A stretch of 64,000 bases of DNA, from positions 1 to 64,000 of the IMG/VR virus record IMGVR_UViG_3300033148_004210, one strand, 5' to 3'. This DNA comes from a virus. Below, one piece after another: positions 30,746 through 46,137 of this stretch; the stretch's first letter is position 1; the number at the start of each line of letters is the position of its first letter. The translations under genes were made by a program, and so were the position numbers. The notes under the pieces are model-generated. The model was not told the DNA's origin. It worked only from the letters and a program-made list of their open reading frames with translations, and searched no databases.

Positions 30746-31366
30746 TTATCTTTTCCAATTTCTTCGATTACGATATTGTCTAGATTTTTGATGATGAAAT
30801 ATTACAGGTTTTTTTATATATTTTGGAATACTTCCATCGTGCATAGCAACTGTAGTATATTCTGCTGGTAATATGTAAGATTTTATTTCTTTATTATTTT
30901 TAATAATTTCTTGTAATATCCGTTGTTCCCACTTGGTAGAAGTCTTAGTCCTTTCTACCCATTTTCTTACTAAAGATAAAACCTTTTCATTATACCTGAA
31001 CATCATCGTTCCACTTAAAAGCTCCCATTTATCTCCACCTTCTTTATTACGCCATTGTCTCATCCAATCAAGTAAGTGATAGGCTATATCGTATTCTTCA
31101 GGTATCTCCCAAAATAAAGAAGGATGTTTCTCTATAGTGCCATCTGCATCTATAAATACTATATTTTTTTTGTGTTTTAATAACATTTTTAAAATAAATT
31201 CACTTTTGTAACTTGTATTTTTTTGCCAGTTTCCCCTGTCTTCCACTTCTTCTATATCATGAATTAAATTGAACTTTTCTAAGCTAGGTCTCAAATGGGT
31301 ATTCATTACTTTTTCATAAGGAGATTTACGAGTATAAAAACTTATAAATATTATTGATGAAGGCAT
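30746..31366 (-). CDS. GT-A type glycosyltransferase
   Basis: The 206-residue protein (ATG 31366; another ATG at 31378 is possible) has the pattern of small nucleotide-sugar transferases: SSIIFISFYTRKSPYE, NIVFIDADGTIEKHP (a DxD-type metal site), ELLSGTMMFRYNEKV, and near the end MHDGS and VIFHH. Family members transfer a single hexose or galactose. It overlaps the upstream transferase gene by 16 bases and belongs to the same operon. Confidence 0.65.
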   Translation of the reverse strand: MPSSIIFISFYTRKSPYEKVMNTHLRPSLEKFNLIHDIEEVEDRGNWQKNTSYKSEFILKMLLKHKKNIVFIDADGTIEKHPSLFWEIPEEYDIAYHLLDWMRQWRNKEGGDKWELLSGTMMFRYNEKVLSLVRKWVERTKTSTKWEQRILQEIIKNNKEIKSYILPAEYTTVAMHDGSIPKYIKKPVIFHHQKSRQYRNRRNWKR

Positions 31367-32160
31367 TGTTCTATCCATTCTACTATTGCTTTAGGAGTGC
31401 AGTATTGTCGAAATAAATCTTTGGCATTGAATCCGATAGCTTGACATTCTTTTCTATGAGTTTTACACCATTCTATTCTTTCAATCAAATTAGAATAATC
31501 CCTATAACATTCTAAATAATGAATATTGGGTATTAATTTTTTATTATAAGGTAATATAGTATTTATTTTTGGTGAAATAGTGCAACAACCAAATGCCATC
31601 ATTTGTAATTGACCTCTATCTAAAATATCATTTCTATAACCTGGAACATGGACAGATACCAAACAATTATTAGCTTTCTTCCAATAAGTAATTTGGTCTG
31701 TCAATGTAAAATTTACATAATCTCCATATCTATCTTTCAATTCCTTTTGGACTTTCTTTCTCCTTTCTTTAGCGTTAGCATAAGCCCGTTGATTATTTAA
31801 AATTATATCAGTGCCACAATTATATTCGATTTGTCCTTTCAAAAGGTTATATTCCTTCCAATCAAAAAAACTCATAGCTCCCAAAGGATAAAGATTTTTA
31901 ATTCCATCATGTATATTTTTAGTGACATGATATTTAAAACAAGCGTAATAATCTTTATATTTAGGATATAATTTTGGGTCATCGGAAACATCTATTAAAA
32001 TTTGTTTACCATCGATATTAATGGAGAAATGAGTAGTATCTAATTCAGTAGAAGAACAAAGCTCAATATTCGCTCCAGCTTCTTTGAATACATTGAGAAG
32101 GAAGAAGTAATGAAATTTATAGTAATGCTGGTGCTCTTTTTTAGGAAATTTAATTTTCAT
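31351..32160 (-). CDS. GT-B type glycosyltransferase (group 1-like)
   Basis: The 269-residue protein carries the C-terminal half of a GT-B glycosyltransferase: NNCLVSVHVPGYRNDILDRG, QLQMMAFGCCTISPKI, YRDYSNLIERIEWCKTHRKE and a terminal helix. The N-terminal domain is short (FHYFFLLNVFKEAGANIELC). The E/D-containing nucleotide-sugar site is represented by DRGQLQMMAFG. Donor and acceptor are unknown; it presumably acts on the same glycan as its operon neighbours. Confidence 0.6.
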   Translation of the reverse strand: MKIKFPKKEHQHYYKFHYFFLLNVFKEAGANIELCSSTELDTTHFSINIDGKQILIDVSDDPKLYPKYKDYYACFKYHVTKNIHDGIKNLYPLGAMSFFDWKEYNLLKGQIEYNCGTDIILNNQRAYANAKERRKKVQKELKDRYGDYVNFTLTDQITYWKKANNCLVSVHVPGYRNDILDRGQLQMMAFGCCTISPKINTILPYNKKLIPNIHYLECYRDYSNLIERIEWCKTHRKECQAIGFNAKDLFRQYCTPKAIVEWIEQCLHQ

Positions 32161-32162
32161 TT

Positions 32163-32342
32163 TTACACCTTATAGAATTTGTCAACATCGTGTCCTTGAC
32201 CGTTTCTTATTTCCATCCATTCAATACATTTAAGAGCACAATCTAAACCTTTATCATGAGGTTGTTTAGCTATTTTCCTGTTCTCTATTGCATCTAAAAT
32301 CGCGTCTTTGGCTAAATCTATTATTTCTTTTTTTGTAAACAT
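32163..32342 (-). CDS. Small helical protein (59 aa)
   Basis: A 59-codon frame, MFTKKEIIDLAKDAILDAIE and on to KFYKV, fills the gap between two operon genes. Its ATG overlaps the stop of the upstream reductase (TAATG), the same coupling used elsewhere in this genome. It includes CALKCIEWMEIRNGQGHDVD. No function recognised. Confidence 0.6.
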   Translation of the reverse strand: MFTKKEIIDLAKDAILDAIENRKIAKQPHDKGLDCALKCIEWMEIRNGQGHDVDKFYKV

Positions 32343-33184
32343 TATCTTTTCCTTTCGATAAATTCTTTCATTTCTATTAATTGAGTTTTATAATTAGGTA
32401 TCTTAGGGTTATATTCTTTCTTTCGATTGTTGATTAGTGTTTTATCTTGTCTAAAGGTATCATTTTTCAATATATATACATCCCATTTTTCCCATATCCT
32501 ATCTATTAATTTCAATAAATCATATTTAGAAATTTTAAAATCAGGAGCAAGATGATAAAGTCCTATTAGTTTGGTATTTATAATCCTATCTATTTGTTTT
32601 GCAAGTTCGAACGTAGTAATCCCACTCCATATAGCCTTCGTATAGCCTTCTATATCCCCTTCTTGTCGCAGAAACCATTCAAAAAGACCACTTCCATCTC
32701 TCTTTAATTCATCTCCTATAATCGATAATCTAAGGGTCAGATGTTTATTATCTATAATTTCTCCCAGAACTTTAGTTTTTCCATAAACATTAGTTTCGTT
32801 TGGTATATCAGTCTCAGAATAATTTCCCTTCTTTCCATCAAAAACACAATCAGTGCTTATATGAATAATTTTAGTTTTCATATTTTTAGTAATATCTACT
32901 AGTGTATGAGGAAATACAGCATTAACAATCCAAGCGTTTTGAGGATATTTTTTAGAATCTTTAACTAAAATACCTACGCAGTTAATTATAATATCTGGCT
33001 GACTATTTATAATAACTCTTTCAAGAAAATTAATATCTCTAACTACATCTATAATAAGAGTATCTTTATTAAATTTTTGTCGGGCAGTATTTATTAATTC
33101 GTATTTATTAAGGGAGTCTAAATATTGGAAGATAGTATGACCAGCCATACCTCTTGAGCCGATGATGAGAACTTTCTTTTTCAT
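32342..33184 (-). CDS. RmlD-like NDP-hexulose reductase (WbvR/FnlB role)
   Basis: The 280-residue short-chain dehydrogenase has the NAD(P)-binding turn VLIIGSRGMAGHTIFQYL. The catalytic set is STDCVFDG with YGKTK (Tyr and Lys). PDIIINCVGILVKDS is typical of RmlD. With the 4,6-dehydratase at 33508 and the 2-epimerase at 34492 it forms a three-enzyme set that makes UDP-2-acetamido-2,6-dideoxy-L-sugars. Lacking the C-terminal cupin of CapF/WbjC, it is nearer WbvR-type enzymes, which favour the L-RhaNAc/L-QuiNAc branch. The product assignment is inference. Confidence 0.75.
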   Translation of the reverse strand: MKKKVLIIGSRGMAGHTIFQYLDSLNKYELINTARQKFNKDTLIIDVVRDINFLERVIINSQPDIIINCVGILVKDSKKYPQNAWIVNAVFPHTLVDITKNMKTKIIHISTDCVFDGKKGNYSETDIPNETNVYGKTKVLGEIIDNKHLTLRLSIIGDELKRDGSGLFEWFLRQEGDIEGYTKAIWSGITTFELAKQIDRIINTKLIGLYHLAPDFKISKYDLLKLIDRIWEKWDVYILKNDTFRQDKTLINNRKKEYNPKIPNYKTQLIEMKEFIERKR

Positions 33185-33196
33185 TCTTTTTTATCC

Positions 33197-33511
33197 TTAT
33201 TCGTTATATTTTTTAGCTAAATCAGGATACCAAAAACTTGAAACAGTATTTGACCCTTCTATTTTATCATCAATTTCATTTGTTCTTAATTGGGTTCTTA
33301 CCATTTCTATAGGAATTCGTTTAGTTGTTTCTATTATCGCAAACCCTCCATTATGTTCGAACCCTAAAGAATGTAACATTTTTAAAACTTTATTAAAATG
33401 CTTACTATCTTCTTTAGAATATATTCGAGTTTCAAGACAAGTATATAATCGAGGAACTACAGAATTATTATAAGAACATCTGGTTATAATTTGACCATAA
33501 TGCCATTTCAT
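33197..33511 (-). CDS. Hypothetical protein, copy 1 of a duplicated gene
   Basis: The 104-residue protein (MKWHYGQIITRCSYNNSVV ... SSFWYPDLAKKYNE) is almost identical to the product of 60295-60630, differing mainly after DLAK. It interrupts the three sugar-nucleotide genes and overlaps the dehydratase stop by 4 bases. No family is recognised; VEMVRTQLRTNEIDDK-like helical and beta segments suggest a small folded domain. Its presence in two unrelated operons suggests recent mobility. Confidence 0.7.
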   Translation of the reverse strand: MKWHYGQIITRCSYNNSVVPRLYTCLETRIYSKEDSKHFNKVLKMLHSLGFEHNGGFAIIETTKRIPIEMVRTQLRTNEIDDKIEGSNTVSSFWYPDLAKKYNE

Positions 33512-33516
33512 TTTAA
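33216..33516 (-). repeat. 301-bp dispersed duplication, copy 1
   Basis: This block matches 60335-60635 at a constant offset of 27119 with about ten substitutions and no visible gaps, roughly 97% identity. It covers most of the 104-residue gene and a few bases before its start. Similarity stops abruptly at both ends. Confidence 0.9.
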
Positions 33517-34491
33517 GTAGCCTCCTCTTTTAAGTAACTCTTTAATTTCTTCTTTTGTCATAAGCTTTTGATATGAATTATATTCTTCTAAAGTTGTTTT
33601 CTTATATCCTATATTATTTGCTGAATCCGCTTCATTGGTAATTAAATAATAATTCTTACCGTATTCATAAGCATTTGAAGTTTCATGTTTAGAGATAAGA
33701 ACTTCATCTATCTTTTCACCAGGTCTTATACCCATTATTTCTATTTTAGTATCTTTATTACCATAATATTCTTTCATAACTTCGGCTAAATCTATAAGCT
33801 TGCATGAAGGCATTTTCATAACAAACAATCCACCATTAATACCACTTCTCATAGCGACAAATAAAAGTTTAATTGCTTCTGGTAAAGTAAGGAAATATCG
33901 AGTCATTTCTTTAGAAGTTACCGAAATTTTATTAAATCGTTTAATCTGGTCTATCCAATGAGGCACTACTGAACCTGCTGTGCCTAAAACATTACCACCC
34001 CTTACAACCATAAATTTAGTTTTTTCACTTAATTTTGAGGCATTAAGCATGAGTTTTTCTCCTATAGCCTTAGTCATACCATAAGTATTGATTGGAAGAA
34101 CTGCTTTATCAGAAGAAACATCCACTACTAATTCAACCTCATTATCAATAGAAGCTCTTATTATATTTCGAGTGCCATTAATATTCGTTTTTATCGCTTC
34201 ATAAGGGAATTCTTCACAAATGGGAACGTGCTTGAGGGCTGAAAGATGAAAAACGTAATTAACCCCCTTACAGGCAAATTTAAGTTTACCATAGTCTCTG
34301 ACATTACCAATTTCTATTTTAATGCGAGGGTCATTGAATTTTCTCTTCATGGATACTTGATTGAATTCATTACGAGCAAGGATTTTAATTTGTTTTACGT
34401 CGAATTGTAGTAACTGTTTAGTTAATTCTTGACCCCAACTCCCAGTTCCTCCGCTTACCAGAATTATTTTTCCTTTAAACATATTTCCCAT
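33508..34491 (-). CDS. UDP-GlcNAc 4,6-dehydratase/5-epimerase (FnlA/WbjB/CapE family)
   Basis: The 327-residue SDR protein has ILVSGGTGSWGQELTKQLLQ (nucleotide site), IEIGNVRDYGKLKFACKGVN, FHLSALKHVPICEEFPYEAI, SSDKAVLPINTYGMTKAIGE and VVRGGNVLGTAGSVVP. These are hallmarks of CapD-like 4,6-dehydratases. The 2-epimerase gene next to it supports the FnlA/WbjB branch over PseB. Expected reaction: UDP-GlcNAc to a UDP-2-acetamido-2,6-dideoxy-hexulose with C5 inversion. Overlap with the next gene indicates one operon. Confidence 0.78.
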   Translation of the reverse strand: MGNMFKGKIILVSGGTGSWGQELTKQLLQFDVKQIKILARNEFNQVSMKRKFNDPRIKIEIGNVRDYGKLKFACKGVNYVFHLSALKHVPICEEFPYEAIKTNINGTRNIIRASIDNEVELVVDVSSDKAVLPINTYGMTKAIGEKLMLNASKLSEKTKFMVVRGGNVLGTAGSVVPHWIDQIKRFNKISVTSKEMTRYFLTLPEAIKLLFVAMRSGINGGLFVMKMPSCKLIDLAEVMKEYYGNKDTKIEIMGIRPGEKIDEVLISKHETSNAYEYGKNYYLITNEADSANNIGYKKTTLEEYNSYQKLMTKEEIKELLKRGGYLK

Positions 34492-35571
34492 TTATATTCT
34501 CCCTGTTAAATATTTAATAATTTTTTCCGACACGTTTAAATCCATATAACCTTCTGGCATATCCCAATTTCTTTTAGAAGTTACCATTAATTCTGTGCAT
34601 TTTAAAATACTTTTTCCATCTATTCCTGATAATATTGCACTACCTACTTCAATAGTTTCAGGTCTTTCCGTTGAATTACGACAAATAACTGTAGGAGTTT
34701 TTAAAATTGTCCCTTCTTCACAAACTGTTCCCGAATCACTTATAATACATAAAGCATTTTTTTCTAATTTTACGAAGTCAAAAAATGATAAAGGTTCTAA
34801 AAATTTAATATTTTTGTTAAGAGCTTTCAATCCCCATTTATCCAGCTTTTGTCTGGTTCTTGGATGGATACTTGCGATTATAGGTAAATTATATTTACTT
34901 GCAACTAATTGTAAACCGAATATTATTTCATATAATTTTGTATATTCATCAACACACTCAGCCCGATGAAACGTAGCTAAAAAATAACCTCTTGAATTTA
35001 GATTTAATTTTTTCAATATTTTACTTGCTTGTATTTTAGTTTCATAAAATTTTATTACTTCTCTAATAGGATTACCCGATATAATTATTTTCTTTCTATC
35101 TATACCTTCTTTACATAAATTTCTTCGACTTCCAGGAGTATAAGGAAAATTATAGGTAGAAACATGGTCAATTATTTTGCGGTTAATCTCTTCAGGAACT
35201 TCTTTATTATAACATCTATTACCAGCTTCCATATGGTAAACAGGTATTCCCATTCTTTCCGCTATAATTGCAGATAACCCTGAATTTGTATCGCCTAAAA
35301 CTAATACTTTATCTGGTTTTTCTCTAATAAATATCTTCTCAACTTCTCTTAAAATAATACCGATTTGTTCTCCCATACTTCCTTTAGCTCCTAAATAGTA
35401 ATCGGGTTGTCTTAATCCCAAATCTTTAAAGAATATATCACTAAGTTTAGGGTCGTAATTCTGACCCGTATGAATCATAATATGGTCACAAACTTTATCA
35501 AGTTTTGGCATAATCCGAGATAGTCTAATAGTTTCAGGTCTAGTTCCTAAAACTGTAATAATTTTATCCAT
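34492..35571 (-). CDS. UDP-N-acetyl-L-sugar 2-epimerase (FnlC/WbjD/CapG family)
   Basis: The 359-residue protein belongs to the UDP-GlcNAc 2-epimerase superfamily, with ITVLGTRPETIRLSRIMPKL, HTGQNYDPKLSDIFF, VLVLGDTNSGLSAIIAERMG, HMEAGNRCYNKEVPEEINR and IISDSGTVCEEG. The TGQNYD and RLSR variants resemble WbjD/FnlC rather than WecB. Expected role: the last step, inverting C2 to give UDP-L-FucNAc or UDP-L-QuiNAc. The gene directly abuts the dehydratase. Confidence 0.8.
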   Translation of the reverse strand: MDKIITVLGTRPETIRLSRIMPKLDKVCDHIMIHTGQNYDPKLSDIFFKDLGLRQPDYYLGAKGSMGEQIGIILREVEKIFIREKPDKVLVLGDTNSGLSAIIAERMGIPVYHMEAGNRCYNKEVPEEINRKIIDHVSTYNFPYTPGSRRNLCKEGIDRKKIIISGNPIREVIKFYETKIQASKILKKLNLNSRGYFLATFHRAECVDEYTKLYEIIFGLQLVASKYNLPIIASIHPRTRQKLDKWGLKALNKNIKFLEPLSFFDFVKLEKNALCIISDSGTVCEEGTILKTPTVICRNSTERPETIEVGSAILSGIDGKSILKCTELMVTSKRNWDMPEGYMDLNVSEKIIKYLTGRI

Positions 35572-37270
35572 TTAAATTTCTCCCATTAAAGTTATCGTTC
35601 AACGCTTTTTTCATACATAAACCTATGACTTTATCAAATTCTTGCCAATTTTCTTCACAAACTTTATTTACCATTTTACCAGCTAAAGGATGTCCAGCAT
35701 ACCAATGTAATCCTATAGTATTTTTTGTTATTCTACATAAATTAGGTTCTGTGTATATTTCATTTATTTTAGTAGCATTGTATGGATAAACTGTAGATTC
35801 GGAAATATTTTTAGGGAACAACACGGGAAATCTTTTATTTATCGATTCAATAGAAGAGAATTCTTTATTTAATAATTTAACTCCTATACTTTGATAATGA
35901 GAGGAATTAAATTTTTTACGAGCTTCTGCAAACAAATAATCGAAATATCTATTTTTAGGGGAAGATAACATAAATCCTATAGAATGACCATAGTCTTTTC
36001 CAATACAAACAACAGTATCTGTTTGATTATAATCTTCTCGATTAATTTTTATTTGATTCATAGATTCGAAATATATTATATCCATATCTGACCATAATCC
36101 TCCTTCAATAGCTAATAAATACCATCTTAAAAAATCGGATTTATGGACTTCTGAAATATTATTATTTACTCCCAAAGCTCTCATATCTACAGTAATAATT
36201 TCCACTCCCATCTTTTTTAATTTTGAAAAATAATTTGCACCTGTTAATTGATATTTTTGTTCATTAGTTGTCCATGTTTTTGTTTTGGTTGGAAACAGTG
36301 GAACATAAAATTTAATTTTCCAATCAGAATTAAATTTATGAAAAGATAATACTGTCAAATATCTAAGAAATGGTAATATTTCTTCTCCCCAATAAAAATG
36401 AGCAACTTTAGGAATTCTATTTAAATTCCATTTTATCTTTCTTTCCTTATACATGTCTATTAATTTTTTATTATCCTCACTGTCTTTCATTTGTCCCCAA
36501 ATTTTACCAACATTACTGTATATAATCCCTTCTTTATCTTTTTTTTCATATAAATTTTTATTATGATGATATAATTGCATAATACTTTTTAATCCTATTC
36601 TATGCCGAGGGTGATATAAATGAATAATAGTAGAATTTATTTTTGTATAAGTGCATCCATATCTTCTTAATCTCGCAATAAAATCTGTATCATCGTAAGC
36701 CCATCCAATAAAATCTTCATCGTATCCTCCAATAGTTAAATAATCTTTTTTATTCATTCCTAAAAAGAAAGGAAGATGAGTTTGTAAACCTTTTAAAGAA
36801 TTTACTTTAGACTTATCTATTATTTCTCCTTTAGTATTTTCAATATATTCTAAAAACAAACCTTTCCTATCATCTTTACCAAAAGTTTTAACCAATTTCT
36901 TTTTTTGGTTAATTAAATTTTTTATTACTTTTTGAATGGCTCGATTATCCATATGAAAAATTTCAGGACAAGTTAAAATAATATATTTACCTTTGGCTCG
37001 TTTAACTCCTATATTTATTGCATATCCTGGACATCTCCAGAAAATATGTTTCAAATTTCTTTGTCCTGTAAAAACATATTTAATATTTAATTTATTTTTA
37101 TATAGTTCACATATTTTTTCGGTTTCATCAGGAATTCCATCGTTTAAAACTATTATTTCAAAAGAATAAGAACATTTTTGTTGAGACAAGGAATGTAATC
37201 CCCATTTTAATAAATGTGCTCTTTTAAAAGAAGGTATTATTATCGAACATGTGGGTTTTTTAGCTTTCAT
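35564..37270 (-). CDS. Bifunctional glycosyltransferase: GT2 plus GT32-like
   Basis: In this 568-residue protein, residues 1-260 form a GT2 domain: CSIIIPSFKRAHLLKWGL, FEIIVLNDGIPDETEK, KYIILTCPE and GWAYDDTDFIARLRRYG (ED/DD motif). Residues about 280-560 form a GT32/DXD domain: VAHFYWGEEILPFLRYL, HKSDFLRWYLLAIEGGLWSD, then MDIIYF. Two linked transferases can add two successive sugars to a glycan. It overlaps the upstream gene by 11 bases and the epimerase by 8. Confidence 0.78.
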   Translation of the reverse strand: MKAKKPTCSIIIPSFKRAHLLKWGLHSLSQQKCSYSFEIIVLNDGIPDETEKICELYKNKLNIKYVFTGQRNLKHIFWRCPGYAINIGVKRAKGKYIILTCPEIFHMDNRAIQKVIKNLINQKKKLVKTFGKDDRKGLFLEYIENTKGEIIDKSKVNSLKGLQTHLPFFLGMNKKDYLTIGGYDEDFIGWAYDDTDFIARLRRYGCTYTKINSTIIHLYHPRHRIGLKSIMQLYHHNKNLYEKKDKEGIIYSNVGKIWGQMKDSEDNKKLIDMYKERKIKWNLNRIPKVAHFYWGEEILPFLRYLTVLSFHKFNSDWKIKFYVPLFPTKTKTWTTNEQKYQLTGANYFSKLKKMGVEIITVDMRALGVNNNISEVHKSDFLRWYLLAIEGGLWSDMDIIYFESMNQIKINREDYNQTDTVVCIGKDYGHSIGFMLSSPKNRYFDYLFAEARKKFNSSHYQSIGVKLLNKEFSSIESINKRFPVLFPKNISESTVYPYNATKINEIYTEPNLCRITKNTIGLHWYAGHPLAGKMVNKVCEENWQEFDKVIGLCMKKALNDNFNGRNLNG

Positions 37271-38228
37271 TTAACCAGCCTTGAATTTTATTGTCTATAA
37301 TAGAAGCTACTTTTTTCATATCTGTGCATTTTTGTATTTGACTGTCCCATTTCTTTTTATTTATTGGAGTATTTATTTCTTTTAATAATTCTATTTTATT
37401 ATTAAAAATTGGGATATTAAATCTATCAATATTATATTTAGGTATTGCTCCATTAGGACTTAATACTTTTATACCTCTTACTAACATATCAATAACACTG
37501 AAATTATAACTACCTACATGTGTAATTATAAAAGTCTCCATTGTTTGAGTTTTTTCTAAATAATCCATATAATCGGTTGCTTGTATAGGAATAATCCAAT
37601 TAGGTAATACCTTTAAATGCTCGTTTTTCGGATTTCCGCATTTCAAATCAATAGAACGAGAAATAAGACTGTATATTTTATATTCGTTTTTTATCTCCTC
37701 TAACCAATTCCAAATTCTTTTTGACCAAGCGTAATGTTTTATTTTCTCATTTTTCCAGGCATTTAAATATATATGGTCTAATAAAATAGATTTAGATTCT
37801 TTCGGAATATTAAAATAAAAATCAGAAATATAAGGAGCTGGAATTATTTCTGTTTTATTTTTATCCTGCTTAAAAGGAGCATTTTTAAACATAAAAGAAA
37901 AATCTGATAGTTCTCCTATTTCTAAAAACGATATAACTTTTTTACATTTCTTTTTTAATAACGATATGTTTTCTTGGGTAAAGAAAGGATGATAATTTAT
38001 TATTATAATAAAATCTACATTTGGTATTTTTGATAAGTCTAATTTTGGCATTGATAGTCCACTATAATTTTTATTGGTCTTTATAAAATAATCACTTTCG
38101 ATTAAAGTAATATGTTCCATTTGTTTAAAGGACTGTTCTAGTCCATAAGTAAGCATTGAAAAACATAGATTTATATGTCTCTTGTTTTTTACTGGATAAC
38201 CTAATATTAATAGTTTATATTTTTTCAT
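37260..38228 (-). CDS. Putative GT-B glycosyltransferase
   Basis: The 322-residue protein has a Rossmann-like start (YKLLILGYPVKNKRHINLCF) and a C-terminal half with ETFIITHVGSYNFSVIDMLV, then RGIKVLSPNGAIPKYN and a helix, resembling the acceptor/donor domains of GT-B enzymes. The pattern is weak and no donor can be named. Overlap with genes on both sides places it in the glycan operon. Confidence 0.5.
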   Translation of the reverse strand: MKKYKLLILGYPVKNKRHINLCFSMLTYGLEQSFKQMEHITLIESDYFIKTNKNYSGLSMPKLDLSKIPNVDFIIIINYHPFFTQENISLLKKKCKKVISFLEIGELSDFSFMFKNAPFKQDKNKTEIIPAPYISDFYFNIPKESKSILLDHIYLNAWKNEKIKHYAWSKRIWNWLEEIKNEYKIYSLISRSIDLKCGNPKNEHLKVLPNWIIPIQATDYMDYLEKTQTMETFIITHVGSYNFSVIDMLVRGIKVLSPNGAIPKYNIDRFNIPIFNNKIELLKEINTPINKKKWDSQIQKCTDMKKVASIIDNKIQGWLNES

Positions 38229-38796
38229 TTTTTAATGTTATTATATGTTCAATTACAAATCTTTTATTTAAATTATATTTTCGAGTATTGTTATCAGTAT
38301 AAAAATTCTTTTTGGGTTTTTTCCAATCATTACCATATAAAATGTTTAAATAAGATTTATAATCTAAAATTATTTTAACTTCTTTACCTAGAAACAAGTA
38401 TTCGTTTCTTTCTGATATTATTTTTCTTGGGAAATATCTGATATGTTGTTTACTTAAATCTATACAATAATAAATATCTTTTTTCTTACTTAAAAAATAT
38501 CTATCTATATCCACATGTAAAGAACTATCTTCTTCTATTTTAATCGACCAATTGCCTCTAATTAAAGGAATTTTTAATCCTCTTTTATATAAAGAACTTA
38601 AAAAAGCATTGAGTTTATTATAATCATCAAAAAAATCATTAGTTGTTCCTATATCTATATCTTTATCATATTTAATAAAATCTTTATTTCTCATAGCTCC
38701 TAATAATGTTCCAGCTTCTAAAAAATAATCTATATTATTTTCTTCTAAAGCTTCTATTACTTTGAATAACAATTCTTTTGCTTTTGTTTTATTCAT
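38215..38796 (-). CDS. LicD-family phospho(no)transferase, copy 1
   Basis: The 193-residue protein carries the LicD/fukutin core: NNIDYFLEAGTLLGAMRNKD, FIKYDKDIDIG (the D-x-D metal site), and GNDWKKPKKNFY near the end. LicD enzymes move phosphocholine from CDP-choline to glycans; relatives in phosphonate clusters are thought to move AEP from CMP-AEP. The nearby cytidylyltransferase-PEP mutase gene makes the second substrate attractive here. ATGA overlap with the next LicD gene. Confidence 0.75.
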   Translation of the reverse strand: MNKTKAKELLFKVIEALEENNIDYFLEAGTLLGAMRNKDFIKYDKDIDIGTTNDFFDDYNKLNAFLSSLYKRGLKIPLIRGNWSIKIEEDSSLHVDIDRYFLSKKKDIYYCIDLSKQHIRYFPRKIISERNEYLFLGKEVKIILDYKSYLNILYGNDWKKPKKNFYTDNNTRKYNLNKRFVIEHIITLKNEKI

Positions 38797-39368
38797 TTTA
38801 CATCCTTATATAAAGGCATAATAGATTGGTAACTTATTAAAGTATAATGTTTATAAGGTATTTTATTTGTCCTACCTTTTTTTCCATGTTGAGGTATTCT
38901 CCAATCATTGCCATATAAATAATTTAAATATTTTTCTGGATTATGAGGAACTTTAAATTTCCTTTCTAAGAAAATAAGAGTGTCTAATGAACTTATAAAT
39001 TCTTCTGGAAACTTACTTATCATATCTTTTAAATAAATGTTATAATATTTTCCTTCTTTTTTATAATGATAAACATCAAGAGGCACTTTATTAGCATTTA
39101 AAAAACATGTCGAAGCAAAATCATTCCAATTTATATGTGGATAAATATTAACTTTCTTTAAATCTGCAAGTATATTATGCCACAATTTACCATCTTTAAA
39201 ATACTTATATTTGACTCCTATATCAATATCAGCATCTCCTTTAATAAAATTATTATCTCGGATTGCTCCTAAAAGAGTCCCAGAAGATAAGAAAAATTCT
39301 ATATTATATTTTTCTAATACATCTGCCATTTTAAAAAGATAGTTTTTTAACCCTAAATTTTTACTCAT
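38793..39368 (-). CDS. LicD-family phospho(no)transferase, copy 2
   Basis: The 191-residue protein is a diverged paralogue of the preceding gene, with YNIEFFLSSGTLLGAIRDNN, FIKGDADIDIGVKY and YLNYLYGNDWRIPQHGKKG. Two adjacent LicD genes suggest two acceptor positions or two different sugars to decorate. It overlaps the fused endonuclease/decarboxylase gene by 8 bases. Confidence 0.75.
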   Translation of the reverse strand: MSKNLGLKNYLFKMADVLEKYNIEFFLSSGTLLGAIRDNNFIKGDADIDIGVKYKYFKDGKLWHNILADLKKVNIYPHINWNDFASTCFLNANKVPLDVYHYKKEGKYYNIYLKDMISKFPEEFISSLDTLIFLERKFKVPHNPEKYLNYLYGNDWRIPQHGKKGRTNKIPYKHYTLISYQSIMPLYKDVK

Positions 39369-40581
39369 TTATAGCCCTCATAAATCTTTCTTTAATTTGT
39401 TTTCCAGTTAAAGGAATTCTTGGAGCATTTCCTTTGCCTTTTTCTATTTTAATAACTATAGTATTAGGAGCTAACGATTTAAAATCACAATAATTAGAAG
39501 CTGTTTGTTGTCCTCCTGTTGAAGCATGGGTGTTGTTATCCAAAATATAATGATGTAAATTTTTAGGATTTAATTTTTTATGTGTTATTAAACTATTTAA
39601 TCCCATAAGGGTTTCTCCATCTCCTGTTATAACAACTATTTTCTTTTTGGTATTTTTTGCAATACCGATACCTATAGAAAGACAACTGCCCATTCCTCCT
39701 AAAAGATATAAATTTTTATCACTATCTAATATTTTATAAATCGTCCTTGAAGTCATGCCTAATGAAGATATTAACAAAGTATCTTTTTTTAATGTATATA
39801 AAATTAATTTAATCGCTTCCTCTCTTGTGGGATTTTTATTGTTTACTAGATACTTAAAATATTTTTTCCAAAATTTTCTGTTTATATTTGTTTTGCCATG
39901 ACATGATAAACAAAGACTTATAAGGTTATTAAAATTTAAATTATTTTTATTGTAATCTATATGATGGATACATAAAGATTTTTTTATTTCGGATTGTTTT
40001 ATACTACATAATTGGCAACTATATTTATCTCTTTTTCTAATTTCTTTTTTTAATCTTTCTGTAAATTCTATAGGATAAGGTTCAAAAGAAGAACCATTAT
40101 TCCAATGAGGACTATTTTCTCCTTTCTTTGCACATGCCCCACATCTTCCTAAACCAAAACAAGCGGAATCATAACAAATTTTATTTCCACATTCTATACA
40201 ATAATAAATTTGTTTGGTTTTTCCATCTTTATAATTATGATTTAATTTATCTTTTTTAGATTCGCTCAAACTTCTAATAGGAATTTCATGTATTTTTAAA
40301 TATTTAAAAACAGTAGTTATTGAACAATTCTTTTCCATTGCTATTTTAGAAGGAATTTTTGAATTTTTGATATATTGTTCATAAAGAAATTCTTTAGTTA
40401 AAATTTTATCCCACTTTTTTTGATGGAGGTTTCGTCTCGGAATATTATATTTTTTCATCCAATATAATATCACTTTATGAGAACAATCTAATTCAGATGC
40501 AATCCTATGTAATGATATTTTATTTTTTATATATTTCTTGATAAGCAATTTTCTTGTTATGTTGTATTTTTTCTTAGCCAT
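39361..40581 (-). CDS. HNH homing endonuclease fused to phosphonopyruvate decarboxylase C-terminal half
   Basis: In this 406-residue protein, residues 1-245 are a homing endonuclease: two HTH modules (ITRKLLIKKY and LTKEFLYEQY, each ending with K(Y/I)xIP), a ribbon (CIECG...CGAC), then HNH (RDKYSCQLC, LCIHHIDYN, LISLCLSCH). From about residue 247 (NPTREEAIKLIL) it is the TPP-binding half of phosphonopyruvate decarboxylase: SSLGMTSRTIYKI, GGMGSCLSIGIGIAK, VVITGDGETLMGLNSL, HYILDNNTHASTGGQQT. GDG and NN of the TPP motif are kept. The N-terminal half is the next gene (40574-40939). The nuclease apparently invaded the decarboxylase gene at the domain boundary and left the C-half in frame. Confidence 0.85.
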   Translation of the reverse strand: MAKKKYNITRKLLIKKYIKNKISLHRIASELDCSHKVILYWMKKYNIPRRNLHQKKWDKILTKEFLYEQYIKNSKIPSKIAMEKNCSITTVFKYLKIHEIPIRSLSESKKDKLNHNYKDGKTKQIYYCIECGNKICYDSACFGLGRCGACAKKGENSPHWNNGSSFEPYPIEFTERLKKEIRKRDKYSCQLCSIKQSEIKKSLCIHHIDYNKNNLNFNNLISLCLSCHGKTNINRKFWKKYFKYLVNNKNPTREEAIKLILYTLKKDTLLISSLGMTSRTIYKILDSDKNLYLLGGMGSCLSIGIGIAKNTKKKIVVITGDGETLMGLNSLITHKKLNPKNLHHYILDNNTHASTGGQQTASNYCDFKSLAPNTIVIKIEKGKGNAPRIPLTGKQIKERFMRAINE

Positions 40582-40939
40582 TTTGTTTTACATATTTTAT
40601 GTTTTTATAATTAAGTAAATTTAATAATTTAGGAGTTATTTTACTCATATGTCTATGATATTCAGGTTTTTTTCTTAGACTTATTAATAAATCTATTTCT
40701 ATGTCATAATATTGCATAATAGAAGTTAATAAAGTTAAACAAGAACCCAATCCACTATCTTGCATAAAAACTAAAGGATTTTTATCCATTAATTTTGCTC
40801 CTATCGCCATAGCCAAAGCTTCATCCTCTTTTGTGGCAATAATAACCTTATCATAATTTATTATTCCTTTAAATTTAGAACAAGGAACTCCCGTAATAAA
40901 ATCATGAGAATCGACCCATCGTTTTAATTTTCTATTCAT
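40574..40939 (-). CDS. Phosphonopyruvate decarboxylase N-terminal (Pyr) half
   Basis: The 121-residue protein matches the start of phosphonopyruvate/sulfopyruvate decarboxylases: FITGVPCSKFKGI, IIATKEDEALAMAIGAKLMD with the cofactor-activating Glu, LVFMQDSGLGSCLTLLTSIM and PEYHRHMSKITPKLLNLLNY. The full enzyme converts phosphonopyruvate to phosphonoacetaldehyde. Separate alpha and beta chains are normal in ComDE, so the pair could still be active. This half is shorter than usual alpha chains (about 165), so a terminal segment may be missing. It overlaps the endonuclease start by 8 bases. Confidence 0.8.
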   Translation of the reverse strand: MNRKLKRWVDSHDFITGVPCSKFKGIINYDKVIIATKEDEALAMAIGAKLMDKNPLVFMQDSGLGSCLTLLTSIMQYYDIEIDLLISLRKKPEYHRHMSKITPKLLNLLNYKNIKYVKQNG

Positions 40940-42188
40940 ATTTTAATTTTCTTCTTTTTGTTTCTTCTATAGGAGTAAGACTACGAAATTCGTCCAAAGT
41001 AGATATATACTTTTCTAATGATTTTGCGTTTTGTTTAGTTTTCAATATCTGTAATATTTTTTTAACTCCAAATATTTTTGCTCTCTGAGTTTGGTTCGCA
41101 AATATCACTATCGAATATCCAGCATCAAATAATTCTTTATTAGTAATATGTGGGAATTTTGAAGGCACAATTATTAATGGTATTTCTCTTTTCCAATATT
41201 TAGGAATCCCCAGGGCTTCTTTTCCAGTTTTGTCTTTTGAGTGCATTAAAATAAGGTCTGCACCACAATCAGCATAATAATTAGCTCTTATTAATGCTTC
41301 TTTTTTCCCGTATCCTCTAATAAGAGCCTCTGTTCTTGCTATAATACAAAAATCTTTTGTTCTTTGTATTGCTTTTCCAGCTTTAATTTTAGCACCATGT
41401 TTTTTCATATCTACTATAGGAATTTTTCCTCCCCAAAGAGAATTAGATTTTGGAAAAATATTATCTTCTATACAAATTGCAGATACTCCAATTTTTTCTA
41501 ATTCCTTAACTGCTCTTATAAATTGTTCTATATTCCCATATCCAGTATCGGCATCTACTATAACAGGAATATTAACAGATTCTACAATTGGTCTTGCAAT
41601 ATTTATCATATCCGTTAAATTTATAGTTTCATTGTCTACTAATCCTAATCGGGCACTTGTTTCAAAAGAAGAAACCCAAATACCATCGAACCCATACTGT
41701 TCTACTAATTTCGCTGTAATGGCATCATTAGCAGATACTATTACTAATTTTTCTTTAAAAGCATTTTTTAAAGTGTTTTTACTCCTAATATTTTGTAATA
41801 ATTTGGTAGTTGATAAATTAGGATAATAAGGAACTAAAACAGTTTTAATTCCCATTTCTTCAGCTTTTTTAGTATAAGGAGGTATAAAGTCATCGCCATG
41901 AACTATTATATTAACATCGTATTTTTTCAAGTTTTCATATGTTGTAGGGGATTCTTTATCTCTACAATCTTTGATTACCAAATCAATTTCTTTAATAGAT
42001 TTTAATATTTCCACTCTATCTTTATAAGGCATTATAGGTTTTCTTTTATAATCTTGAGTTATATTATCAGGATGCACTCCAATTATTAAATAATCTCCCA
42101 AAGCTTTAGCTTTACGGAAAAATTCTATATGTCCCCGATGCGGTATATCTGCCACTACATTAGCGTATACTATTACTTTATTTTTCAT
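40932..42188 (-). CDS. Cytidylyltransferase-phosphoenolpyruvate mutase fusion
   Basis: In this 418-residue protein, residues 1-130 are a nucleotidyltransferase: VYANVVADIPHRGHIEFFRK with the HxGH site, then LVPYYPNLSTTKLL. Residues about 145-400 are PEP mutase of the isocitrate lyase superfamily: IVSANDAITAKLVEQYGFDG, VSSFETSARLG, IPVIVDADTGYGN, EDNIFPKSNSLWGG. The mutase makes phosphonopyruvate from PEP; the cytidylyltransferase would charge AEP as CMP-AEP. The usual EDKX5NS signature reads EDNX5NS, while the gating-loop FPKxNS is kept. Such fusions are known in bacterial phosphonoglycan loci. Confidence 0.85.
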   Translation of the reverse strand: MKNKVIVYANVVADIPHRGHIEFFRKAKALGDYLIIGVHPDNITQDYKRKPIMPYKDRVEILKSIKEIDLVIKDCRDKESPTTYENLKKYDVNIIVHGDDFIPPYTKKAEEMGIKTVLVPYYPNLSTTKLLQNIRSKNTLKNAFKEKLVIVSANDAITAKLVEQYGFDGIWVSSFETSARLGLVDNETINLTDMINIARPIVESVNIPVIVDADTGYGNIEQFIRAVKELEKIGVSAICIEDNIFPKSNSLWGGKIPIVDMKKHGAKIKAGKAIQRTKDFCIIARTEALIRGYGKKEALIRANYYADCGADLILMHSKDKTGKEALGIPKYWKREIPLIIVPSKFPHITNKELFDAGYSIVIFANQTQRAKIFGVKKILQILKTKQNAKSLEKYISTLDEFRSLTPIEETKRRKLKYE

Positions 42189-43153
42189 AAATAAAAACTT
42201 CCTTTATAATCATTAAAAAATTGATTTCTAATTCCTTTTTTAACTGCCTTTTCATAAATTATTTTCGCTAAAGCAATATCGCAAATAGCTATCCCTATAT
42301 TATAAGCTATAATTTTTTCTTTATTATTATCTCTTGCTCTTTTTCCTAAAATAATTTCCCCTAATTCTGCATAAATGTTTGGTAATCCTCCGCTAAATTC
42401 TCCTTTTGATTTATAATATAAAGTTTGTTCTTTGTCATCGGTAATAGTTTTATCAAATTTCATAGCACAATTTTCCCATCCTCTATGATGAATAGGTAAA
42501 ACCAATACCCCTTCTTTTAACCAATTCGGATTAACAAAAGGTTTATTTACATAAGTAGTTGCTGTTAAAATAATATCCGAATCTTTTACTGTTTTTTCTA
42601 TTGATGAACAAATTTCAAAAATTAACTTTGTTGGGCGAAATCTTTTAATAAACCTAACAGCAGTGTTTTTATATCTATAAATTTTTATTTTCTTAATTTG
42701 TGGACATAATTTATATATAAATTGCAAGCAAGCTACTGATTGGACACCTGCACCTATAATTGCAAGGGTTTTTGCTTCTTGAGTAGCAAAATATTTCGCA
42801 GTCAACCCAGCCATTACTCCTGTTCTCATAGCAGTAAGCCAACTAGCTTCCATTACTGCTAAAGGATGTCCTGTAATCATGTCATTTAATAAATAAGTGC
42901 TAATTACTTTTGGAATATTTTTATTAGTATTTTTGGGAAAACGACTTACCCATTTAATTCCTGACATATTGTATTTCGGAACATAAGAAGGCATTGAGGT
43001 AAAAAATATACCATCTTCAGGAGCAATACTTACTTTGGCTGGCATAAAAACTCTTTCGTTTGCGTGTTCTTTTAAAACATCTACTATCGCATTTAAACAT
43101 TCATTAAAAGTAATCTTTAATGATAATATTTGTTTATGAGATAAAACAATCAT
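42185..43153 (-). CDS. Ornithine cyclodeaminase/mu-crystallin family dehydrogenase
   Basis: The 322-residue NAD(P)-dependent protein has FMPAKVSIAPEDGIFFTSMP, GIKWVSRFPKN with the substrate-binding Lys, AMRTGVMAGLTAKYFA, LAIIGAGVQSVACLQF (nucleotide turn) and GGLPNIYAELGEIILGKR. Family members reduce or form imines of small amino acids. It lies between AEP transaminase and PEP mutase, with overlaps on both sides, so it probably acts on a phosphonate or an amino acid linked to it. I cannot name the substrate. Confidence 0.75.
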   Translation of the reverse strand: MIVLSHKQILSLKITFNECLNAIVDVLKEHANERVFMPAKVSIAPEDGIFFTSMPSYVPKYNMSGIKWVSRFPKNTNKNIPKVISTYLLNDMITGHPLAVMEASWLTAMRTGVMAGLTAKYFATQEAKTLAIIGAGVQSVACLQFIYKLCPQIKKIKIYRYKNTAVRFIKRFRPTKLIFEICSSIEKTVKDSDIILTATTYVNKPFVNPNWLKEGVLVLPIHHRGWENCAMKFDKTITDDKEQTLYYKSKGEFSGGLPNIYAELGEIILGKRARDNNKEKIIAYNIGIAICDIALAKIIYEKAVKKGIRNQFFNDYKGSFYL

Positions 43154-44240
43154 TTTTTACCTTCTTTACTGCTTTCAAAAACTTTCTAATATCTTTCTCT
43201 GTTATATTCCCTATATTTCCTAACCTAAAGGTTTTTTCATTGGTTAATTTTCCAGGATAAATAGTGAACCCTTTTTCTTTTAATTTATCATGAAATTTAT
43301 TAAAATCAAATTTTTTAGGTTCATAAAAAGTCGAAACTATCATACTTTTTTCCTCATCTATAAATAATAAAGGTCGAAATCCTAATTGTATCATACCATA
43401 TTCCAATTCCATAGAATTGCGACAATATCTTTTATATCGATTTATTCCCCCTTCTTTAAAATATTCTTTTAAAGCTTGTTTTAAAGAATATAAACATTGC
43501 ACCGCAGGTGTAAAAGGAGTTTGATTATGTTTATCAAAATGCTTATAATTACGCCATAAATTTAGATAATAAGACCTTATAGGATAATTTCGAGTTTTCA
43601 TAAGTGCCATTTTTTTTGCAATTACAAATGAAATTCCTGGCATCCCTTGTAAACATTTATTTGCTGAACCCATAATAAAATCGGCTTGAACTTTTTGAAT
43701 ATCAATAGGTATTCCCCCAAACGAAGATATAGTATCAACAATATAAATTTTTTTATGTTCTTTAACTATCTTTCCTATAGTTTCAATATCATTTAAAATT
43801 CCTGTAGTAGTTTCGTGATGAATTACTGCTACTGCGGTTATATCAGGATAATATCTAAAACAATATTCGATAGCATCTATTCTGATAGAAGTTCCCCATT
43901 CTGTTTTTATTGAAATAGTATTAATACCATAACTTTTTGCTATTTCTTCTATTCGTGTTCCATAAGCTCCATTTTCTAAAATCAATAATTTTCCATTTTT
44001 CGGAATAACAGAATTAATAGTGGCATCCATAACAGAAGTTCCTGAACCAGTAAATAATATAGAAGTATATTTTTTATCCCCATGAACTACTTTAAGTAAA
44101 TCTTTTCTAATACCTTCCATCACTGCCCCAAACTCCTTTTCTCTTGGACAAATATCAGGAACAACTTGAGCATATTTTACAGTGTCGGTAGTTGTTGCTG
44201 GTGCTGGAGTTAATATAATATTTCGTTTAATTTTTTTCAT
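43134..44240 (-). CDS. 2-aminoethylphosphonate-pyruvate transaminase (PhnW-like)
   Basis: The 368-residue class V PLP aminotransferase has NIILTPAPATTTDTVKYAQV, DICPREKEF, SILFTGSGTSVMDATINSVI, AVIHHETTTGILNDIE, VDTISSFGGIPIDI, and MGSANKCLQGMPGISFVIAK with the PLP Lys. These match AEP transaminase. In a synthetic setting it would run towards AEP, amination of phosphonoacetaldehyde. It overlaps the sulfotransferase by one base (TAATG). Confidence 0.82.
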   Translation of the reverse strand: MKKIKRNIILTPAPATTTDTVKYAQVVPDICPREKEFGAVMEGIRKDLLKVVHGDKKYTSILFTGSGTSVMDATINSVIPKNGKLLILENGAYGTRIEEIAKSYGINTISIKTEWGTSIRIDAIEYCFRYYPDITAVAVIHHETTTGILNDIETIGKIVKEHKKIYIVDTISSFGGIPIDIQKVQADFIMGSANKCLQGMPGISFVIAKKMALMKTRNYPIRSYYLNLWRNYKHFDKHNQTPFTPAVQCLYSLKQALKEYFKEGGINRYKRYCRNSMELEYGMIQLGFRPLLFIDEEKSMIVSTFYEPKKFDFNKFHDKLKEKGFTIYPGKLTNEKTFRLGNIGNITEKDIRKFLKAVKKVKNDCFIS

Positions 44241-45220
44241 TAATATTTCCTATAAGGTTTCCCAGAATGGAATCCATTGGCATTAAGCCATTTATAATGT
44301 TCTCTAACTGCATCCACACATTCTTCTTTTTTATAATCAAGAGTATATCCAAAATACTCCATTATATCTCCAAAATAATATTCAATAACTTTTCTTTGAT
44401 ATTCTGTTAAAATTTCCTTATAAATACCAATTCTATTTTTATTAATTCCTTTATAAATTTTAGTAAAACTATTTCCTTTCCATTCTACTCCACAACAAGT
44501 TGGATTAAGATTTAAAAGGGATTCTCTAATTCCTATCCATTGACATAATTCTGTCATTGATTTTTTTGGAGATTGCACTAACTTCTCATAACAAATATTT
44601 TTATATTTTGTAATTCCGAATTTAAGCCAATTATCTTTCGCCATATTCATACATAAATAACCTCTATCAATAAAATCTCTTAATAATCTTTCTTTACTGT
44701 CATATTGATTTTTGTAATGCTTATCCCATCCAGTTAAAATAGAAGCGAAATTATCTCTTGGGTCTCTAACTATATTTATAAATTTGGCATCTGGGTAGAT
44801 TTTAAAAATTTCATTTACATATATTTCAGAATGGGTATCTTTAGTAATTACAATTTTATCTTTTATTCTTATTTCTTTATCTAAAACATTTCTTACAGCA
44901 TCTATCATAGAAACAAAAAACCCACATACATCTTTATTGTGAATCGATAAAAGTGCATCAAAATTATTTTCTAATTCTTTCTGAAAAATCTCCTTTTTAC
45001 CCCATTTTAAAACTATTTGACACAAATCTTTTAATAAAAAATTCTTTATTCTATCTTTTTGTTGTTCTAAAGTATATTTAGATTTTAAATATTCAGGATA
45101 AAAAGAATACCAAAAATGAGTTTCATAAGGATAGACCCATAAATCAGGATGTCCATCTAAAAGACTAGCGAGTAAAGTAGTCCCTGATTTTCTATGTCCT
45201 CCAACAAATAAATGTTTCAT
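44240..45220 (-). CDS. Sulfotransferase (PAPS-dependent), long form
   Basis: The 326-residue protein has the 5'-phosphosulfate loop FVGGHRKSGTTLLASLLDGH and the 3'-phosphate site FINIVRDPRDNFASILTGWD, hallmarks of the sulfotransferase superfamily. YEKLVQSPKKSMTELCQWIG is the usual third region. It probably sulfates a sugar of the glycan assembled by the operon, using host PAPS. No PAPS synthase is encoded in the window. Confidence 0.82.
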   Translation of the reverse strand: MKHLFVGGHRKSGTTLLASLLDGHPDLWVYPYETHFWYSFYPEYLKSKYTLEQQKDRIKNFLLKDLCQIVLKWGKKEIFQKELENNFDALLSIHNKDVCGFFVSMIDAVRNVLDKEIRIKDKIVITKDTHSEIYVNEIFKIYPDAKFINIVRDPRDNFASILTGWDKHYKNQYDSKERLLRDFIDRGYLCMNMAKDNWLKFGITKYKNICYEKLVQSPKKSMTELCQWIGIRESLLNLNPTCCGVEWKGNSFTKIYKGINKNRIGIYKEILTEYQRKVIEYYFGDIMEYFGYTLDYKKEECVDAVREHYKWLNANGFHSGKPYRKY

Positions 45221-45398: not shown

Positions 45399-45553
45399 TT
45401 CTCTAATTCCTTATGAATTAAATAATGTTCTTTTAAAGCTTCGTTTAACCAGTTTTTTAACTGTATTCCTTTAAATAACCTATCACTTCTTACTATCCAC
45501 TTATGACCACATAAATAACATTCGTAACTTGTGGTGTCATAGAATTTTTTCAT
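45395..45553 (-). CDS. Small CxxC protein (52 aa)
   Basis: The 52-residue frame starts MKKFYDTTSYECYLCGHKWI, with one CYLC pair and a helical end (NWLNEALKEHYLIHKELEK). Its ATG overlaps the stop of the second sulfotransferase (TAATG). Half of a zinc ribbon, so a homodimer could bind metal. Function unknown. Confidence 0.6.
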   Translation of the reverse strand: MKKFYDTTSYECYLCGHKWIVRSDRLFKGIQLKNWLNEALKEHYLIHKELEK

Positions 45554-46137
45554 TATTTACTCCAATTTTTAGGGGGTTTTATATACTTTTGTAATCCGTT
45601 TATAGACTTTAAATCCAATAATTTCCATACTTCTTTTAGTTCTTTATCAGGATTTTTTACTAAAAATTCATACGATACAATATTACTAATATTTAAGTTT
45701 TTTTCTTCAAAATGAAGAAAACTAGCTACCATATGGTGTCTAAATCCTATATATAAATTCTTACTACATAATCCTCTAACACTATGTTTATCTTGTCCTA
45801 CCCAAGATTTATAAGTTTGTTCAGCATCTCTAACAATAAAAATAAACTTCGCTTCAGGAAATACTAAAGCCAATCTTCGCCAAGTCATAGCTTCTATACC
45901 AGCATTTAAAGCAAATTTAGCTCCCTTATATTTCCCAGGTGCATAAGAAAATTCTTTAATAATCTTTTTAACATAAGGGTCGTTTTTATATCTTCCTAAA
46001 TGAGAAACCCTAATACTGTGCCAAAGTTCATAAGGCTCAAATTTTATTTCTTGGACTTCAGGATGTTTTAATATTAAGTCTCTTAAAATGCTAGTGCCAC
46101 TTCGTCTCATACCAATTATAAAAAATAGTTTATCCAC
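45553..46137 (-). CDS. Sulfotransferase (PAPS-dependent), short form
   Basis: The 194-residue protein keeps the PAPS-binding loop FFIIGMRRSGTSILRDLILK and the FIFIVRDAEQTYKSWVG site, plus IVSYEFLVKNPDKELKEVWK. It is shorter than the other sulfotransferase and only distantly related, so the two probably act on different positions. It is the first gene of the glycan block when read in the minus direction. Confidence 0.75.
   Translation of the reverse strand: MDKLFFIIGMRRSGTSILRDLILKHPEVQEIKFEPYELWHSIRVSHLGRYKNDPYVKKIIKEFSYAPGKYKGAKFALNAGIEAMTWRRLALVFPEAKFIFIVRDAEQTYKSWVGQDKHSVRGLCSKNLYIGFRHHMVASFLHFEEKNLNISNIVSYEFLVKNPDKELKEVWKLLDLKSINGLQKYIKPPKNWSK

Follow-up and report, generated by a model that had tools for sequence, protein, structure and literature searches.

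Described systems and the phage cassette

The WbvB-WbvR-WbvD enzymes of Vibrio cholerae O37, which make uridine diphosphate (UDP)-N-acetyl-L-quinovosamine (UDP-L-QuiNAc), consist of a dehydratase, a cupin-less reductase and a 2-epimerase. The same three kinds of enzymes are encoded by a gene cassette in the DNA analyzed here, which is the first 64 kb (hereafter, the window) of a 101,595-bp IMG/VR virus record (IMGVR_UViG_3300033148_004210). We consider this cassette to be a phage-borne pathway from UDP-N-acetylglucosamine (UDP-GlcNAc) to UDP-L-QuiNAc, with a probability of roughly 0.65. For the Megavirus chilensis enzymes Mg534 and Mg535, the first two steps of such a pathway were shown experimentally, with UDP-N-acetyl-L-rhamnosamine (UDP-L-RhaNAc) as the product. 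PMC9614988 describes Mg535 as a 270-aa enzyme that yields UDP-L-RhaNAc by C3 epimerization and C4 reduction, notes that the C3-epimerization cysteine of guanosine diphosphate (GDP)-fucose synthase is conserved in it and describes WbvD as a C2 epimerase. According to the giant-virus papers, Mg534 carries the motif Tyr140xxxLys144, L-QuiNAc is found in Megavirus fibrils and ascribed to Mg536, and V. cholerae O37 is a named source of L-QuiNAc.

We compared the window cassette with these and other systems. Like Mg534-Mg535-Mg536, it is a virus-borne trio with a tyrosine-type inverting dehydratase, a 270-280-aa RmlD-like reductase that lacks a cupin and has a cysteine at the catalytic position, and a 2-epimerase. 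In contrast, Megavirus is a giant virus of amoebae from a different virus world, and the window dehydratase is closer to CapE, FlaA1 and Pen than to the Mg534 structure (4tqg). The FnlABC, WbjBCD and CapEFG sets, which make UDP-N-acetyl-L-fucosamine (UDP-L-FucNAc), also combine a PF02719 dehydratase with a CapG-clade 2-epimerase, but their methionine-type dehydratase belongs to another clade, and their reductase has a cupin and no phmmer match to that of the window. A chromosomal trio in Bacillaceae (for example, in L012 and L194-L213) contains close relatives of all three genes and shares the gene order, the tyrosine-type dehydratase and the cysteine-type reductase; it differs in being chromosomal and in often lying near sulfotransferases and genes for 3'-phosphoadenosine-5'-phosphosulfate (PAPS) synthesis. 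The window trio would work like WbvBRD and Mg534-536, a likeness drawn from the features of the enzymes.

Organization of the cassette

Plus-strand structural genes extend up to ~28 kb of the window, with a tail tape-measure match at 18898-21435, and are followed by minus-strand genes, namely a glycan block and then replication genes. The open reading frames (ORFs) of the three pathway genes are at the positions given by the sequence-only reading; they lie on the minus strand and are intact (Table 1). Transcription runs from the 2-epimerase gene through the dehydratase gene and a 104-aa ORF to the reductase gene. We found intact motifs in the dehydratase (GGTGSWG, SDK and Y137xxxK141), the reductase (GSRGMAG, STDC113 and Y134xxxK138) and the 2-epimerase (GDTNS, HMEAGNR and HR). 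All three genes recur in matching order in the related viral contig L002, with 66, 58 and 60% identity to the window. Because this relative keeps the three genes in order, the cassette is, by this comparison, not a chance run of short-chain dehydrogenase/reductase (SDR) genes.

The 104-aa ORF shares 4 bases with the dehydratase gene at the end of the latter, had no Pfam or NCBIfam match and is absent from between the dehydratase and reductase genes of L002. It lies in a 300-nt direct repeat (33204-33503 and 60323-60622, 96% identical) that holds a 104- or 111-aa ORF, which suggests a recent duplication inside the phage. L002 carries an ORF between its 2-epimerase and dehydratase genes that, by eye, resembles HNH/helix-turn-helix (HTH)-type nucleases. 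The duplicated small ORF inside the cassette would fit the view that the trio is a set of passenger genes or decaying imports that serve no function for the phage. We regard this view as very improbable, since the reading frames are open, the motifs are intact and the order is constant in many viral contigs, some of which carry a T4-type capsid gene.

Dehydratase

The sequence of the dehydratase indicated that it is probably a tyrosine-type UDP-GlcNAc 4,6-dehydratase that inverts C5. Its best NCBIfam match was PseB (TIGR03589; 284.7 bits, cut-off 407.75), and FnlA scored 257.6 bits (cut-off 730); because both curated scores were under the cut-off, we assigned it to neither family. A sequence search of the PDB gave 257 bits for Acinetobacter baumannii WbjB, 228 for CapE, 218 for FlaA1 and 215 for Pen. 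The window dehydratase has Tyr137 where FnlA and CapE have methionine, and its Y137xxxK141 corresponds to the YxxxK of the Mg534 type. Two papers give methionine at this SDR tyrosine site in CapE and WbjB (PMC3699295, PMC5774825), and a third gives methionine in WbpM and PglF and tyrosine in PseB/FlaA1 and Pen (PMC8987622).

We surveyed this site in 156 dehydratases that either adjoined the reductase type or came from a dehydratase scan. Tyrosine was present in 81 and methionine in 73, and two were unreadable fragments. The 81 tyrosine-type enzymes comprised 76 viral rows (one of them the window) and five loci from Bacillota (L012, L014, L015, L017 and L018). Every readable viral row (76/76) had tyrosine, and all bacterial dehydratases near WbvR-type reductases, apart from the five tyrosine loci, were methionine-type (73/73). 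Tyrosine was also found in 20/20 further Bacillaceae dehydratases.

In the tree of 104 dehydratases, the window fell into a 42-row clade of its own (25 viral rows, the window included, and 17 from Bacillota) with a support of 100/100. For the trees, short rows and rows more than 85% identical (dehydratase) or more than 75% identical (epimerase, reductase) were dropped. CapE/WbjB, a second methionine clade, PseB/FlaA1 and Pen with WbpM all lay outside the window clade, and PseB and FlaA1 formed a separate 5-row clade (100/99). The branching order among the dehydratase clades was weakly supported (35/51), and the viral rows L006 and L092 had long branches outside the phage clade. The AlphaFold2 model of the dehydratase had a mean predicted local distance difference test (pLDDT) score of 91.1, and a fold search with it gave about equal scores for Pen, FlaA1, WbjB and CapE, with Mg534 somewhat lower. 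Fold comparison was consequently set aside as a means of separating the dehydratase families, since these four score alike.

A route of the PseB kind, with inversion at C5 alone and reduction at C4, would lead to a 6-deoxy-L-altro or ido N-acetylhexosamine (HexNAc) or, after C2 epimerization, to the L-allo or gulo form. The dehydratase has the SDK...YxxxK motif of PseB/FlaA1, and PseB is its best NCBIfam match. However, that score is below the cut-off, PseB falls into a different clade, inspection by eye showed no PseC-type aminotransferase alongside the dehydratase, and Cys113 suggests that the reductase epimerizes C3. We therefore judge this route to be quite unlikely.

Reductase

The sequence and model of the reductase characterized it as a probable 3-epimerase/4-reductase of the WbvR/Mg535 type. 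The structural model (pLDDT 95.2) showed an RmlD fold, and the fold search returned RmlD entries that were 17-28% identical (best PDB match 28%), with the solved Pal structure far lower (16%). Its score against the RmlD model TIGR01214 was 97 bits, below the cut-off of 224. As the sequence-only reading had stated, a cupin was absent; the 280-aa protein had no PF14667 match, and phmmer with it found no CapF at E <= 1e-3. CapF carries the PF14667 cupin, and hhalign aligned the reductase with CapF only over residues 4-142. On these comparisons, the reductase is not CapF/FnlB. The whole 101.6-kb record contained no CapF-type cupin (PF14667) or RmlC above the Pfam cut-off.

The reductase is a single-domain protein with the candidate epimerization cysteine in the motif STDC113VFDG, where three of three RmlD proteins have tyrosine. 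Aligned by hhalign, Cys113 lay on Cys109 of the E. coli GDP-fucose synthase WcaG. Cys113 was conserved in 81/81 viral and 80/80 bacterial rows, most of which were fetched by the same motif, so that the cysteine is present by construction in the loci found with the STDCVFDG seed. The unbiased sample consists of the Bacillaceae reductases reached through the dehydratase, and Cys113 was present in 19/19 of these. In the reductase tree (102 rows), the window belonged to a 28-row viral clade (99/93), and every trio reductase was separate from the three RmlD proteins (100/99).

2-Epimerase

The 2-epimerase is, by sequence, a UDP-HexNAc 2-epimerase of the CapG/WbjD/FnlC clade and not WecB, as had been proposed from its WbjD/FnlC likeness. 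It scored 334 bits with CapG (7ya2) versus 116 with WecB (1f6d) in the PDB search and shared 44.5% identity with CapG versus 29.4% with a WecB. The epimerase tree showed a 100/100 split that placed the window and all trio epimerases on the CapG side, opposite WecB, MnaA and an annotated phage 2-epimerase. The window protein lay outside the 24-row CapG subclade, in a loose grouping with viral rows. It passed the cut-off of the WecB-type model TIGR00236 (258 bits versus 210), yet the tree placed it outside the WecB clade. Neither of the groupings that the sequence-only reading had named as decisive against it, dehydratase with PseB or epimerase with WecB, was thus observed.

Distribution of the trio in viruses and bacteria

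Scanning viral contigs for close relatives with the reductase alone as the query returned nothing; a three-sequence reductase alignment detected relatives in 104 IMG/VR stretches. We kept 80 of these 104, as well as 80 of the 289 bacterial stretches in which the alignment detected a relative. The dehydratase was present in 76/81 viral loci that hold the reductase. Where 3.5 kb or more of upstream sequence was available (60 viral loci), the dehydratase was present in 58 and the full trio in 36 (contigs not dereplicated). Of 17 whole viral records tested, 12 had the 2-epimerase and six a T4-type gp23 capsid gene. The order 2-epimerase-dehydratase-reductase was found in 39/39 viral full-trio loci, with the window included and near-identical contigs kept in, but in only 5/67 bacterial full-trio loci, which equals the number of tyrosine-type loci in that set.

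All three genes were present in 18/20 short Bacillaceae loci. Among 100 Bacillus-related genomes, 68 had a dehydratase match at E <= 1e-60; counted by eye, 42 matches in 40 genomes reached at least 297 bits, below which the score dropped to 251. In the 'phages' collection (50,697 records), the dehydratase matched six records. Two were from Staphylococcus, and the one inspected holds a capE-capF-capG row; these matches are probably host capsule DNA. The only record of the six that also had a reductase match was LR745206, from an uncultured huge phage. In this 634-kb record, the dehydratase and reductase genes lie ~5 kb apart (L006; LR745206.1 426000-442000), and no 2-epimerase match was found in it at E <= 1e-10. 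Viral contig L003 (5260-13121) holds the dehydratase and 2-epimerase without a reductase match; its surroundings contain, by eye, head/tail-like genes and a protein resembling the MptE-like ORF of the window, together with a sulfotransferase match. Searches of the open literature listed no report of the trio in a bacteriophage, and a search on WbvBRD found no relevant paper.

Proposed pathway and product

From the genes, clades, motifs and gene order observed here, we infer the following steps for this phage. The tyrosine-type dehydratase would remove water across C4/C6 and invert C5, giving UDP-4-keto-6-deoxy-L-HexNAc. The single-domain RmlD-fold reductase would then invert C3 via Cys113 and reduce C4 to yield UDP-L-RhaNAc, which the CapG-clade 2-epimerase would turn into UDP-L-QuiNAc. 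By our own stereochemical reasoning, C5 and C3 inversion with C4 reduction should give L-RhaNAc or 2-acetamido-2,6-dideoxy-L-talose (L-TalNAc), and C2 inversion would convert these to L-QuiNAc or L-FucNAc. Because the phage enzymes share features of the Mg534-536 set, L-QuiNAc is our first choice of product, and L-FucNAc appears less likely.

The general claim of the sequence-only reading, a three-enzyme set for a UDP-2-acetamido-2,6-dideoxy-L-hexose, was supported by these comparisons. Its filing under FnlABC/WbjBCD/CapEFG did not hold for two of the three enzymes, as the dehydratase falls into a clade other than that of FnlA/CapE and has tyrosine in place of methionine, and the reductase is not CapF/FnlB. 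UDP-L-QuiNAc, which it had named as an alternative, would be a better product than UDP-L-FucNAc, because neither of these two enzymes is of the FnlABC type and the record has no CapF-type cupin or RmlC above the cut-off; the Megavirus enzymes provide the experimental precedent. A true FnlABC/CapEFG-type route to UDP-L-FucNAc would need C3 epimerization and the opposite C4 reduction by the cupin-less reductase, or a cupin from elsewhere. The CapG/FnlC clade of the 2-epimerase, the slightly better PDB matches of the dehydratase to WbjB and CapE than to FlaA1, and a standalone cupin at 56366-56761 are consistent with this route. It is nevertheless unlikely, given the position of the dehydratase outside the FnlA/CapE clade (FnlA score 258 bits, cut-off 730), the dissimilarity of the reductase to CapF and the mannose-6-phosphate isomerase type of the cupin, whose match to the CapF cupin model covers 26 residues and is below the cut-off.

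Several observations weigh against the pathway to UDP-L-QuiNAc. No assayed enzyme of the window dehydratase clade was found, and the WcaG alignment that pairs the two cysteines spans residues 1-115 only, with a probability of 84.5. The full trio was missing in 24 of the 60 viral loci that had 3.5 kb or more of upstream sequence (again without dereplication), and the 2-epimerase was missing from 5/17 whole viral records; because of such loci and records, some phages may end at L-RhaNAc. In addition, Pen (6bwc), a 5,6-dehydratase of the same motif class, was the top fold match of the dehydratase, above FlaA1, WbjB and CapE, as would be expected if the dehydratase were Pen-like and the reductase acted as Pal, feeding a 4-keto-L-HexNAc pathway. 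We consider this highly improbable, since Pen belongs to a different, fully supported clade and Pal ranked behind the RmlD entries in the reductase fold list.

Neighboring glycan, phosphonate and sulfate genes

The trio is surrounded by genes for glycosyltransferases, LicD proteins, 2-aminoethylphosphonate synthesis and sulfotransferases (Table 1).

Table 1. Genes of the cassette and its surroundings in the window.
Feature	Position	Strand	Remarks
Nucleotide-diphospho-sugar transferase	30746-31378	-	PF03407; kept in L002
Glycosyltransferase-like protein, downstream of reductase	31351-32160	-	PF05686 below cut-off; kept in L002
Reductase	32342-33184	-	280 aa; PF04321 (RmlD_sub_bind), 83.7 bits
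104-aa ORF, not thought part of pathway	33197-33511	-	Between the dehydratase and reductase genes; 60295-60630 is a near copy
Dehydratase	33508-34491	-	327 aa; PF02719 (Polysacc_synt_2), 308 bits
2-Epimerase	34492-35571	-	359 aa; PF02350 (Epimerase_2), 295 bits; first gene of cassette
Two-part glycosyltransferase, candidate sugar user	35564-37270	-	Glycosyltransferase family 2 (GT2)-like PF00535 and sugar-binding region PF04488; kept in L002
322-aa protein	37260-38228	-	No Pfam match; kept in L002 beside glycosyltransferase
LicD-family transferase	38215-38796	-	PF04991
LicD-family transferase	38793-39368	-	PF04991
Phosphonopyruvate decarboxylase beta part (thiamine pyrophosphate-binding, C-terminal) with N-terminal extension	39361-40581	-	Unfused in L002
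Phosphonopyruvate/sulfopyruvate decarboxylase alpha part	40574-40939	-	
Cytidylyltransferase-phosphoenolpyruvate (PEP) mutase fusion	40932-42188	-	PF01467 and PF13714
Ornithine cyclodeaminase/mu-crystallin family protein	42185-43153	-	
2-Aminoethylphosphonate aminotransferase (PhnW/AepZ)	43134-44240	-	Above NCBIfam cut-off
Sulfotransferase	44240-45220	-	PF13469
Sulfotransferase	45553-46137	-	PF13469

In L002, the gene order of the window is preserved across the trio, the phosphonate genes, both LicD genes and the glycosyltransferase genes, and this contig was the only relative found when viral contigs were scanned for close relatives of the PEP mutase. Vibrio phage Va2 already has an annotated PEP mutase. 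According to PMC6697681, fusions of PEP mutase with a cytidylyltransferase are common where bacteria tailor their surfaces with phosphonates. The PEP mutase motif reads EDNIFPKSNS in both the window and L002, versus the consensus EDKxxxxxNS, and the L002 gene (2449-3686) is split over two frames as sequenced. The N-terminal part of the decarboxylase beta protein weakly matched HNH (19.4 bits; cut-off 21.4) and HTH models, in both cases below the Pfam cut-offs.

A phmmer search with four sulfotransferase queries found a sulfotransferase next to trio genes in three viral genomes only (window, L002 and L003), and a sulfotransferase motif search matched no viral locus. A general link between the trio and sulfation in viruses was rejected, as the phmmer matches were limited to these three. 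Bacillaceae loci with the tyrosine-type trio (L012 and L225-L244) often hold genes for sulfation; among 20 Bacillaceae loci of 20 kb, we found a sulfotransferase in 10, ATP sulfurylase in nine, adenosine 5'-phosphosulfate (APS) kinase in 12 and at least one of these in 16. In the 80 bacterial loci, an ATP sulfurylase match occurred in one only, L012. The link looks real but local in Bacillaceae. Six of the 20 loci contain a relative of a small cysteine-rich protein, which we take to resemble the spore coat proteins CotY/CotZ; Bacillaceae with the tyrosine-type trio perhaps make a sulfated spore-surface glycan.

The glycan of the phage would be built and decorated by the products of the neighboring genes. 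One glycan bearing phosphonate, and perhaps sulfate, is plausible, the phosphonate because L002 keeps the cassette beside the 2-aminoethylphosphonate genes. The custom glycan suggested by the sequence-only reading from the adjoining 2-aminoethylphosphonate and sulfate genes is plausible. The phosphonate block accompanies the trio in one related phage, L002, and the sulfotransferase queries used found such genes beside the trio in only the three viral genomes named above. The acceptor would most likely be the late proteins of the phage itself or the host surface. As PMC12619734 cites glycans on the capsid and tail of mycobacteriophages, decoration of the virion is a reasonable assumption, with a change of the host surface as the alternative.

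Three other minus-strand genes were recorded. The standalone cupin, 20 kb from the trio, matches the C-terminal type of mannose-6-phosphate isomerase (PF01050, 27.6 bits). At 52451-55651, the frame of a family B DNA polymerase continues into a Mom-family domain at the C-terminal end (PF25680, 153 bits; PHROG 1384, 'Mom-like DNA modification'), and the polymerase and DNA-modification parts seem to form a single protein. Among the phage genes, 47563-48471 encodes a protein of the M17 leucyl-aminopeptidase type (PF00883, 209 bits).

Significance

Tentatively, we envisage tailed phages, some of the T4 type, with an L-RhaNAc/L-QuiNAc pathway of their own that has long been separate, and a lineage of the window and L002 that couples it to the 2-aminoethylphosphonate pathway and sulfotransferases for a phosphonate- and sulfate-bearing glycan on the virion or the infected host. 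The split between tyrosine and methionine offers a simple sequence marker, and the predicted role of Cys113 is directly testable. If the pathway to UDP-L-QuiNAc is correct, a sugar pathway established in a giant virus of amoebae would also be a recurrent trait of phages and, should the virion carry the glycan, would bear on how phages alter their own surface.

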